Shown here in pieces: positions 14,251 through 17,639 of a stretch of 23,059 bases of DNA. The DNA lies in NCBI GenBank assembly GCA_002270565.1, contig NQMI01000281.1:1-23059 (forward strand), given 5' to 3'. A model generated the notes under the pieces. The model saw nothing but the letters and a program-made list of their open reading frames with translations. It made no database searches and was not told the DNA's origin. Origin of the DNA: Stenocarpella maydis. Lineage: Eukaryota; Ascomycota; Sordariomycetes; Diaporthales; Diaporthaceae. Position 1 is the stretch's first letter. Every line of letters begins with the position of its first letter. The translations under genes were made by a program, and so were the position numbers.

Positions 14251-15141
14251 TTACAAATCGCCAGACCGCTCCCAGACAAAAGGACCAGGTCTCCTTCCAG
14301 ATGTCTCAAGGGTTACCCTTGGGTACGGATGGGAAGAAATTTGGGTTCTGAATCCGTTCACGGTTCCGTTTAGCCATGTCGGCCTGGCGTTTCTGGTATA
14401 CTCTGTTTTGATGGAATGTCCTGATTTCATGTCAGATGTTATCTTGGAAAGCGCTAAGCGTTGAAAGCCACGACTGGAGGGTGGTTGGCCAGACCTGTGC
14501 AAGGCAAAGACGCGAGGCTCTTCCTCCGCTGGTGGCTCTTCCTCAGCCTTCTATAGTAATATGATCAGCGACTCAGATGATATTCCCGGGCTTCCTTGGG
14601 TCCCAGTGGGCACGATGCAGATACGCAACATACCTTCTCGACCTTTGACTCGTCGGCCTTCTTGTCGTCATCGCCTTTTTTGTCCGCTGCATCCTTCTCC
14701 TTGCCCTTGCCCTTGGACTTCTCACTCTCCTCCTTCTTCTTGCGCTGGCGTTCCTCATACTCCTTCTTCACCCTCTCAACCTCAGCTTCCATCTCCTTCT
14801 TCTTCTTGGCGTCGATCGCGGCCTGATCGACGATGGGCGAGCAGAACCCACGGTCCTTGAGATGGCTCGGGCAGACAAAGAAGAAGTCCTGTTGAGAGGC
14901 TGAGTTAGGGACGAGCTCCTGGTGGCAGTTTGCCCAAGAGATGTGCTCTGCATCTGGGAAGGTGGGACCCGAGATGCATGAGCGGGCGTATGAGTGAGGC
15001 TGCCACTTGAGCGACGGTGAGACGGACCTGCTTGTCGGGCGTCACCAGCACGCTTGTGCTGGGCTTGAAGCAGATCTCACATCGTTTAGAGGCCGCTTCG
15101 GCCACCTTTCGGTGTGTGTAGACATTGGGAAAGGAGGCCAT
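14251..15141 (-). CDS. VFA1: VFA1-like Vps4-associated protein, C-terminus replaced
   Basis: Homologue of yeast Vfa1, a small cytosolic/endosomal protein that binds the AAA ATPase Vps4 of the ESCRT-III pathway. Three exons: 15141-15028 (38 codons), 14888-14634 (85 codons) and 14550-14251 (99 codons plus stop). The predicted protein is 222 residues. The start is the ATG opening MASFPNVYTHRKVAEA, which begins the family's conserved N-terminus. Two Cys pairs fit a zinc-binding fold: CEIC (residues 21-24), then the VCP and GFC segments early in exon 2. Exon 2 continues as a charged coiled coil (KKKKEMEAEVERVKKEYEE) and a Lys/Asp/Glu-rich stretch. Exon 3 keeps EEPRVFAL and then leaves the family: the usual C-terminal helix rich in Gln/Arg and the ending with a Tyr-Phe-Pro motif are absent. 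They are replaced from about 14500 by some 80 unrelated residues. Family identity is firm. Whether this copy still works is doubtful, because the C-terminal end is where I recall the Vps4 contact lying. Confidence 0.85.
14551..14633 (-). other. VFA1 intron 2
   Basis: An 83-nt intron with donor GTATGT, branch point GCTGAT and acceptor CTATAG. Splicing keeps the frame from VEK into KAEEEP, as expected for the family. Confidence 0.85.
14889..15027 (-). other. VFA1 intron 1
   Basis: A 139-nt intron with donor GTCCGT, branch point CTAAC at 14908-14904 and acceptor CAACAG. Its removal joins codon 38 (Gln) directly to GAC TTC TTC and restores the conserved DFFFVCP stretch. Confidence 0.85.
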
Positions 15142-17462
15142 GGCCGTGTTGCGTGGTTGCTTCGGCTGGGCAGCGTTGGCCCTGTGGTCTGAAGATGAAG
15201 TGGAAGGTCTGGTGGGGCCTACAGTGTCAGAGGAGATAGTTCCGGACTTCGTACTGTAGACTTTAGTCATGAGGGCACGTGACTCCCTCCGGCAGACCAG
15301 ACCAGACCAGAGGTTGATAACTCGGGGTTGCCTCCAGATGTAAGGTGCGATTACGATTTGATTGAAAGTTGAGCCGAGTTTCACATTGTGTATTGTGGCT
15401 CACCATGAGAGTCTCCACTGACCAATAAAAGGCTGATTCGATGCCCTTGTGAGAAGGCAGGAGGCCCTCATTTGCCACAAACAGACAGTTTCAAATCAGC
15501 AGGGCATCAAAAGACAAACAGATAAAGTTGTTCTGCGACAAAGTATTTCTCTACTAAATTTTCCACTCCCTCGACGATCGACGACTTCCAAGGTTCTAAT
15601 ACGGCAAGCATCCCCGATTGCGTGTGGTCCTTTCTCCTTGCTCCTTACTTTTAACTATGCGTCTTCCGAGTTAAATCCCAGGGGTCTACATCCCACAAGT
15701 TATTTTCCAGTAACTTCAGTCCTGCTTCACCAAATGTTCCATGTACCTATGGATACCTGCCTGGCTCTTGTATCTCGCTTTGCTGCCTTTGGACATATCA
15801 AGAAGAGGGATGCTTAGAGAAAACGGGAAAAGCTTCAGATTGTTGACAAGTAATTGAGGCATCCTCGGTATCTTTACATCCAGCAGGTAGAATATATATG
15901 CAAGTTAATAGTGGAGCATACGAGGTCTTGATCGTCATGGTCAACGTCACGTGGGCCCCTCTGGAACGCCCAGGGGCTTTCAGGGATGGTTATATAAGCC
16001 GAGTAGCTACTATATAGCTTCTTCGGCGTAGCGAGGATGCTATCAGACAGGCTTAGACATCAGGTTCAACTATCCGTTTCGGGCCCGCAGGGGACGAAGA
16101 GCCCACTTGTTCTGCCTTTGTACGACGGCCTTTACATTGATGAATCCATTCAAGCAGCCGCTCTCATATGTCCACCAATATACAGCGTCCATTTCTCTCC
16201 ATCACTCGTTTTTCTGGTCTGCACCCAAGATGGAATTGGGCAACTTGAGCGATGTTAGGCAAGCATAATTCTAAAGCAACTTGAAAGCCAGAAAAATAGA
16301 CGGACTGTAGGAGGTCATCAGGGCAGTCCGATTCAGATTCCTACATGTGCTGCGAAGCTCTTAATCTCTTACATAGTTAACAAGAGTCGGCATTCAGCCA
16401 CTGAATGACAATACAATTCTTTGGCAATAATATGCGCATCCGTCCACACCAAATCCCAAGACTATGTTGGAACAGTCTTTGCGCCAAGCTATGGAGATCG
16501 GCAGCTCGAGGTACGATGCGAAATAGATTTGGTACCAGGTAGCTGAGCACCTACCACAGTCCACCTGCCCCAGCGGGTACCAATTAGAAGACATATATAT
16601 TTTCGAAAATATTATCTGGTGAAACCGTCGCATCATCGGCATTAGTGCTAACTTGGATACCTTGCCGCCAGAATTGACCATAAATATTCAGAGTGTGTGA
16701 TATTGATTCCTTGTACTCGGCGCCTGCAAATTGCTAGTCAGTCACCTTTCGGAATCGCTAAGAATCGGCAATTCGGGCCATGTTGTACTTGACCTGTGGT
16801 TGCTTTATCGTTGCTTGGAAATCCGCACCTCCCTGCACGGCCCTAGTTACCTAGGTAGCTGGCTTCATTTTAATCCGATATACCTAGGCAGACAATTCCC
16901 CAGGAAATCCTCCTCGAAGAAACCGCACTCTGTGACCCTGCAGTCAAAATGCTGGTACGACTCGGGCTGGTGACTCCGGCCCGCTAGTCACTCGGAGAGT
17001 AATTCGTGCAAAAATTTCAACATTTGGACAGGCTTCGCTCTCCCCCGAGGAATCCGCAATCACTGGTTCTTTGTATGCTGCAGCTACCCGAAACCGAGGC
17101 ACGGAGTGAGACACTGTTGTCTCGAAAGAACCACGGACCCAATTTGGTGGCGGTGGTGAGTTAATTAAGTCGGCAACGGTGGCTGAGTGTGCCAGGCAGG
17201 GGTTCCGGACGCACCACCAGCCAGGTATCCAAGGCGAGCGAGTCTCACTCACATTTTCTCAGTCACGCGATTAATCAAGTAGACGAGAGAATATTTCGAC
17301 CTGTATATGACAAAAATAATCGCGCCGTTGTAATATATAATATGGGGGAAATTGGCAGCGCCGACACACGCTTGATTCTGAGGTCGCAGCTGCATGACAC
17401 TGGTTCTCGTGGACAGATCCTGTGGTCTGTATAATCACGTCAAGCAGGGCTTCCCAACAACT
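15142..17462. other. Intergenic, no gene recognised
   Basis: The stretch between the VFA1-like gene and the tRNA. It holds the presumed VFA1 promoter (no clear TATA box seen), a TATATAAG box at 15991-15998, and several open frames of 70-122 codons that match no family known to me. A 73-codon frame (16037-16258) starts 39 bases after that TATA-like box, but it has no homology I can name. Confidence 0.5.
15998..16026 (+). repeat. Imperfect hairpin after a TATA-like box
   Basis: GCCGAGTAGCTA at 15998-16009 is followed by the imperfect reverse complement TAGCTTCTTCGGC at about 16014-16026. It lies immediately 3' of TATATAAG, where a transcription start would be expected. Confidence 0.4.
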
Positions 17463-17469
17463 GGCCTGG

Positions 17470-17480
17470 TGGTCTAGCGG
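17470..17480 (+). promoter_or_regulatory. tRNA A box
   Basis: TGGTCTAGCGG fits the Pol III A-box consensus TRGYNNANNNG at every fixed position. Confidence 0.85.
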
Positions 17481-17498
17481 TATGATTCGCGCTTCGGG

Positions 17499-17527
17499 TG
17501 TTTCATCCAGCATGTCTAACATGTTAA
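17499..17527 (+). other. Canonical tRNA intron (37/38)
   Basis: A 29-nt insert one base 3' of the anticodon, as in most eukaryotic nuclear tRNA introns cut by the Sen endonuclease. It contains a short hairpin, CATGT-CTA-ACATG (17511-17523). The 3' anticodon-stem strand GTGCG follows at 17529-17533. Confidence 0.85.
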
Positions 17528-17536
17528 TGTGCGAGG

Positions 17537-17593
17537 GTAAGCGGCTCCACCTCCAAGTCATTCCAACAACGAATATCACTAACAATTAAGCAG
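17537..17593 (+). other. Spliceosomal-type (GT-AG) intron inside tRNA
   Basis: A 57-nt insert. It begins GTAAGC, carries CACTAAC at 17577-17583 (branch A expected at 17582) and ends AAGCAG, with the AG ten bases after the branch-point motif. Donor, branch, spacing and length all match short introns of filamentous fungi. Exact removal yields the variable loop AGGTC and an intact tRNA. No helix within it suggests an endonuclease-type (bulge-helix-bulge) substrate. Confidence 0.8.
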
Positions 17594-17598
17594 TCCCG

Positions 17599-17609
17599 GG
17601 TTCAATCCC
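17599..17609 (+). promoter_or_regulatory. tRNA B box
   Basis: GGTTCAATCCC overlaps the T arm and matches the consensus GWTCRANNC. The two inserts push it about 119 bases from the end of the A box, longer than usual but still workable for TFIIIC. Confidence 0.85.
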
Positions 17610-17632
17610 CGGCCAGGCCCAAATAATAATTG

Positions 17633-17639
17633 TTTTTTT
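17633..17639 (+). terminator. Pol III T-run terminator
   Basis: T7 starts 13 bases after the tRNA 3' end, followed by further T4-T6 runs separated by single C to about 17660. This is ample for Pol III termination and suggests the gene is still transcribed. Confidence 0.85.

Follow-up and report, generated by a model that had tools for sequence, protein, structure and literature searches.

rRNA is a product of Pol I and U6 snRNA a product of Pol III. Introns of the GT-AG type with a CTRAY-type branch site have been described in small structured RNA genes of fungi, namely those for U6 snRNA and U3 snoRNA, where according to the accessible part of the report their presence varies between copies within one genome (PMC5832005), and a title from 1993, cited in PMC11782384, speaks of mRNA-type introns in the nuclear rRNA genes of ascomycetes, another structured non-coding host. 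A 2026 review deals with the splicing of tRNAs and the spliceosome as two distinct systems in the sections available (PMC13149111), whilst non-canonical tRNA introns of eukaryotes were supposed in 2014, in the portion of the source at hand, to be rare and pseudogenic with the exception of those in nucleomorphs and a red alga (PMC4090602). The ectopic introns of Cyanidioschyzon and of nucleomorphs can occur several to a tRNA gene, lie in the D and T arms and are tied to bulge-helix-bulge processing, with GT-AG or CTAAC signals not mentioned in the available text of these papers (PMC3978253, PMC4090602).

Here, we describe 17 inserts in 16 nuclear tRNA genes of Stenocarpella maydis that have the length, ends and branch motif of spliceosomal introns and that, judged from sequence and with a probability somewhat below nine in ten, are removed by the spliceosome. 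Spliceosomal introns in small RNA genes were thus already known; what is new is the tRNA host, together with three tRNA families for which no intron-free copy was found. Compared to the U6 and U3 introns as far as these are covered by the accessible part of PMC5832005, the inserts differ in this host, in their spread over five families and nine positions, in the second, endonuclease-type intron that accompanies them in 12 of the 16 genes (all but those for initiator Met and Ser) and in the three families without a found intron-free copy; the ascomycete introns named in the 1993 title likewise have a different host, rRNA. Like the canonical introns at position 37/38, which are the province of the tRNA endonuclease and Trl1 and which the Pro, Lys and elongator Met genes possess alongside their GT-AG inserts, the inserts are found in nuclear tRNA genes and their removal gives a mature tRNA. 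Unlike canonical introns, they reside in the D stem, between nt 32 and 33, in the anticodon, the variable loop and the T arm, measure 53–63 nt and bear splice and branch signals; in the Guillardia nucleomorph, introns are 3–24 nt long according to the text available (PMC4090602). No earlier description of spliceosomal introns in nuclear tRNA genes was encountered in the literature searched, which lay outside subscription papers and preprints and was in part accessible as excerpts.

A tRNA-Pro(CGG) gene with a canonical intron and a GT-AG insert

The window, which is the entire 23-kb contig C200 of an assembly of 53.5 Mb in 312 contigs, contains a tRNA-Pro(CGG) gene split into three exons (Table 1). 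The sequence-only reading had assigned to the second interruption the layout of a short fungal mRNA intron and had claimed that its precise removal affords a perfect tRNA. Direct reading bears out the layout (the insert opens with GTAAGC, has CACTAAC ten bases ahead of its end and closes with AAGCAG), and excision of both introns indeed gives a tRNA-Pro(CGG) of 72 nt in which the acceptor stem (7/7), the anticodon stem (5/5) and the T stem (5/5) are fully paired and the variable loop reads AGGTC. When permitted to place introns, ARAGORN takes the uncut gene for Arg(tcg), but returns Pro(cgg) with a canonical intron once the GT-AG insert has been taken out. Neither ARAGORN under default settings nor Rfam at its gathering score called a tRNA in the window, and between 17300 and 17800 a tRNA match was absent even at E values up to 10. 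Across 100000 shuffles of the insert, GT..AG arose at a frequency of 0.0029 (with two equivalent placements counted) and CTAAC at 6–36 nt from the end at 0.076: taken together with the same signals in the other 16 inserts of the genome, this shows that the splice signals of the window insert exceed chance. Elsewhere in the window, an open reading frame on the minus strand (14905–15384) matches Pfam Vfa1 (PF08432; E 6.6e-11, residues 87–119).

Table 1. Coordinates of the window tRNA-Pro(CGG) gene and location of the interrupted U6-like loci.
Feature	Location	Strand	Basis
tRNA-Pro(CGG) exon 1 (nt 1–37, anticodon CGG)	17463..17498	+	sequence reading, cloverleaf
A-box-like TGGTCTAGCGG	17470..17480	+	sequence reading; box consensus
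Canonical tRNA intron, nt 37/38, 29 nt	17499..17527	+	cloverleaf; ARAGORN intron of 29 nt
Exon 2 (nt 38–46: loop T38, anticodon stem GTGCG, variable-loop AGG)	17528..17536	+	cloverleaf
GT-AG insert, predicted spliceosomal intron, 57 nt, nt 46/47, variable loop	17537..17593	+	
CTAAC, predicted branch site (A at 17582, then 11 nt to insert end)	17579..17583	+	
Exon 3 (variable-loop TC, T arm, acceptor 3' strand, discriminator C)	17594..17620	+	cloverleaf
B-box GGTTCAATCCC, unbroken	17599..17609	+	
Stretch of seven T, probable Pol III terminator	17633..17639	+	
U6-like loci with inserts: L154, L155, L157, L158	C167, C301, C21, C68		

Interrupted tRNA genes across the genome

Whilst the insert of the window gene is real, its portrayal as one odd gene does not stand, as the gene is a member of a set of 16. 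Searches of the same genome revealed the 17 GT-AG inserts at nine positions (23/24, 32/33, 34/35, 35/36, 36/37, 46/47, 48/49, 53/54 and 59/60, in our own numbering), with none of them at the eukaryotic endonuclease-type position 37/38, and by gene and place they form six groups: Pro, initiator Met, Ser, Lys anticodon, Lys T arm and elongator Met. Interruption affects every copy found of initiator Met (3/3, in the D stem at GA^GC), of Pro(AGG) (5/5) and of Ser(GCU) (1/1, between nt 32 and 33), five of the six Lys(CUU) genes found and one of the three elongator Met genes found (in the T loop, TTCAAG^TC). Together with the window gene, a spliced-exon query thus gave 6/6 interrupted genes for Pro(AGG/CGG). 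Intact Pro(CGG) genes elsewhere, which would have spoken for a silent copy, did not appear: the window gene is the sole CGG gene found. Genes lacking a GT-AG insert comprise Lys L030, which has a 66-nt canonical intron only, elongator Met L019 and L020, and L016, the only Pro(UGG) gene found.

Thirteen of the 16 genes were first met by searches blind to splice signals: the window gene by reading, L002–L004 by DNA similarity, L135, L137 and L144 by exon query, and L035, L036, L046–L048 and L050 by the tRNA covariance model. The remaining three (L054, L060 and the Ser gene L066) came from a pattern that demanded CTAAC and AG and are hence biased. When the whole window gene served as query against its own genome, three further full-length copies were retrieved and a pattern search added two, all of them Pro(AGG). 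The place of the insert is not fixed within a family: in Pro L060 it lies two bases downstream (AGGTC^CCGGG as against AGG^TCCCGGG) with an identical mature tRNA, and in the Lys genes it follows nt 34 (L036), nt 35 (L035, L137 and L144) or nt 36 (L135). The tRNA-Lys(CUU) gene L144 (C44:53637–53831) is interrupted twice, by a GT-AG insert in the anticodon and by a second at 53/54.

The covariance model gave 62 matches in the genome, 15 of them on C312, which is taken as mitochondrial; the nuclear loci, when read, yielded three interrupted genes for initiator Met, one for elongator Met and two for Lys(CUU). A tally by hand arrived at a minimum of about 86 nuclear tRNA genes including the 16 with GT-AG inserts, a figure drawn from lossy searches, one of them confined to the first 100 places, with some genes judged by match length and not read; the covariance search, for instance, passed over an intronless Gly(GCC) gene that another search found. 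Neither this model nor the spliced-exon query returned an intron-free copy of initiator Met, Pro(AGG/CGG) or Ser(GCU) from the genome, although such copies may exist given the lossy searches and a possibly incomplete assembly. Queries for Phe, Trp and Cys tRNA genes gave no match in the genome. Val(CAC) L107 was not counted: by eye, its canonical intron happens to start with GTGAGT and to end near CAG, but removal from GT to AG leaves four bases too many. Outside this genome, the Pro-gene pattern matched two viral contigs, seemingly the same tRNA gene without the insert, two other patterns had no match in viral contigs, and a single scan of genome contigs gave one match, a bacterial record.

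Splice signals and constraint on the exons

The inserts, at 53–63 nt, fall within the length range of Sordariomycete mRNA introns. All 17 start with GT and end with YAG at sites that are set by restoring the tRNA, and all contain CTAAC with its A 9–13 nt before the insert end; the base 5' of this motif is A or G in 14/17 and T in L002, L048 and the second, distal motif of L036. According to the part of PMC5832005 available, the fungal norms are GT-AG ends, RCTRAY and a branch-to-end distance of 6–36 nt, and CTAAC at this distance from the 3' end is present in 17/17 inserts. Shuffling each insert 100000 times produced GT..AG at 0.0015–0.027 (to be multiplied by how many equivalent placements there are) and CTAAC at 6–36 nt from the end at 0.011–0.076. 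The strict full signature had 30 distinct matches in 589,242 strand-bases of loci fetched from the genome (overlaps counted repeatedly), of which 15 are tRNA inserts, five overlap the same tRNA genes and ten lie elsewhere; some of these ten may be ordinary mRNA introns.

Ectopic introns of the endonuclease type exist in the red-algal nucleus and in nucleomorphs, as the accessible text of PMC3978253 and PMC4090602 describes. The inserts could likewise be ectopic tRNA introns that the tRNA splicing endonuclease removes, with incidental GT-AG signals, and canonical introns are indeed present in these very genes; such an origin, however, predicts neither GT, CTAAC and YAG at fixed distances in 17/17 inserts nor their moving together with the insert, and we regard it as very improbable. 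Bulge-helix-bulge scores at the insert ends were within those of shuffled sequences (fractions 0.21 to 0.96), and the same applied to 11 canonical control introns, so that this comparison has little power. We know of no need of the tRNA endonuclease for the position, the length range or the splice and branch signals of the inserts.

The reading of the window insert as a spliceosomal intron, in which splicing itself is inferred, is supported by the sequence tests: the signals are kept in the otherwise diverged inserts of six Pro genes, recur at different sites in four further tRNA families and remain at the insert ends when the position shifts, and the exons co-vary across the insert. Between copies, insert identity is 44–60% for Pro and initiator Met (27–37% when shuffled) and 66–89% for the Lys anticodon inserts, whilst the gene outside the insert is 89–99% identical; comparisons with the window gene, which has a longer canonical intron, give 72–75% outside the insert. 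Paired changes across the insert are seen in initiator Met at 6:67 (T-A, T-A, C-G) and 7:66 (A-T, G-C, A-T), and in Pro at 3:70, where the window gene has C-G and the others T-A.

Removal of the GT-AG inserts also restores the tRNAs as judged by ARAGORN, which recognises the expected tRNA in 16/16 genes after removal but, with introns allowed, in only 2/16 of the uncut genes (Ser L066 and Lys L135): nine uncut genes are named wrongly or differently (amongst others as Arg, twice as Leu, as stop-reading, as Lys(ttt), twice as Gln and as His), and several yield no call. The cloverleaf stems are fully paired after removal (for Ser as assessed by ARAGORN and by eye) with the exception of one T-T in L050, whose anticodon stem has 4/5 pairs; by reading, the identical mismatch is present in the intact L019. 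Read with a single long canonical intron, the Lys genes would display the anticodons CGU, CUG and CUU on one Lys body, whereas excision of the GT-AG insert leaves every one of them with CUU and a canonical intron of 20–22 nt at 37/38. Copies thus differ in the place of the insert (Lys 34/35, 35/36 and 36/37; Pro 46/47 and 48/49) and share the same mature body.

Could the 16 genes be pseudogenes broken by insertions, with intact copies doing the work? Non-canonical introns in eukaryotic tRNA genes have been ascribed to pseudogenes (PMC4090602, in the part available), the tRNA searches are lossy and the assembly possibly incomplete, and L144 is itself maybe faulty, as its 53/54 insert breaks the B-box and its joined T loop has 6 nt. 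Set against this are the likeness of the exons, their pairing and the paired changes across the inserts, as well as the failure to find intron-free genes for initiator Met, Pro(AGG/CGG) and Ser(GCU), of which the initiator tRNA cannot be missing; pseudogenes are consequently the least probable of the explanations that we weighed.

As to the origin of the inserts, an introner-like source was not borne out: 11 inserts queried against the genome matched only their own places and L004, a near-copy of L003, so that the spread of one recent mobile intron is unsupported for the inserts in this query, which left out five Lys anticodon inserts. Insertion through reverse splicing, reportedly proposed earlier for U6 introns, is a guess.

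Proposed transcription and processing of the interrupted genes

Spliceosomal splicing is usually coupled to Pol II, and the inserts could be spliceosomal introns of genes that are read by Pol II or lie within longer Pol II transcripts that first undergo mRNA-like splicing and then release the tRNA. The B-box, broken in L050 and L144, would fit this, yet it is intact in the other 14 of the 16 genes, four or more consecutive T begin within 31 nt in 16/16 (as against 14% of random 45-nt stretches with such a run), and the genome also contains U6-like genes with GT-AG inserts, which offer a Pol III precedent; transcription by Pol II is accordingly most unlikely, if not quite as remote as a set of pseudogenes. 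The U6 model gave seven genome matches, two of them above the cut-off, and of the six loci read four have an insert or its 3' end (L153 and L156 are without). In L154, L155 and L158, a GT-AG insert separates GAT from TAGCATGG and has CTGAC or CTAAG close to its end; in L157, of which only the 3' part is seen, an apparent insert 3' end (CTGACTCCCAG) directly precedes CAGAGA. The inserts of these four loci contain B-box-like stretches such as GAGTTCAACTC or GAGTTCGATTC. By comparison, the 5S rRNA model had 35 matches, and no inserts are evident amongst the 29 above the cut-off, each of which measures 115–121 nt; the U3 model had one genome match. Trl1, the tRNA ligase, is encoded by an open frame whose product is 85% identical to that of Diaporthe amygdali (up to 87% with other records) and 75–76% to those of Cryphonectria and Cytospora.

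Pol III, the preferred polymerase, would read the window gene by way of its internal boxes and stop at the T run; with GTAAGC at 17537 as the target of U1 and CTAAC at 17579 as that of U2, two splicing steps would join nt 46 to nt 47. Excision of the canonical intron at 37/38 would fall to the tRNA endonuclease, and Trl1 would seal the gap. In the Lys genes, where the insert interrupts the anticodon or borders on it, the anticodon loop exists only after GT-AG removal, so that the spliceosome would need to come first for the endonuclease to find this loop. As no intron-free initiator Met, Pro(AGG/CGG) or Ser(GCU) gene was found, translation would depend on the spliceosome. On the basis of these gene structures, we thus consider it quite probable that the spliceosome serves here as a tRNA-making machine for the initiator, Pro(AGG/CGG), Ser(GCU) and most Lys(CUU) tRNAs, rebuilding the split Lys anticodon, and that translation including its start hangs on pre-mRNA splicing.

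Single tRNA genes, the window gene amongst them, here combine two kinds of intron, tRNA-type and apparently mRNA-type. If the spliceosomal reading is true, these genes offer a natural system in which to test how introns are gained and change place and how Pol III and the spliceosome are linked, the spliceosome copes with tRNA precursors whose exons reach down to 22 nt (initiator Met), spliceosomal introns were gained in tRNA genes several times, and genomes of this kind have wrong or incomplete tRNA annotations, as ARAGORN, even with introns allowed, gave a wrong name or none to 14/16 uncut genes.

Several further tRNA-like loci were observed. The 3' halves of tRNA-His are parts of a repeat: L162–L169 comprise a repeat that ends in such a half, the L162 copy being preceded by tandem GGCCGAAGAAACCTCGTT units. 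A recurring tRNA-like stretch that ends GGTTCAACCCCACGCCTGGGATTTT (L090, C2:692573, C56:386925 and C64:81822) is perhaps a tRNA-derived short repeat. At L049/L067 (C236:45090–45170), a tRNA-like 3' half made up of T arm and acceptor strand has CCTAAC..CTGCAG upstream; its 5' half and isotype were not found. Finally, L076 (C1:400179) and L114 (C37:68014) are tRNA-like genes with long inserts between the anticodon and the T arm, that of L114 ending in GGCTAACAGAG.
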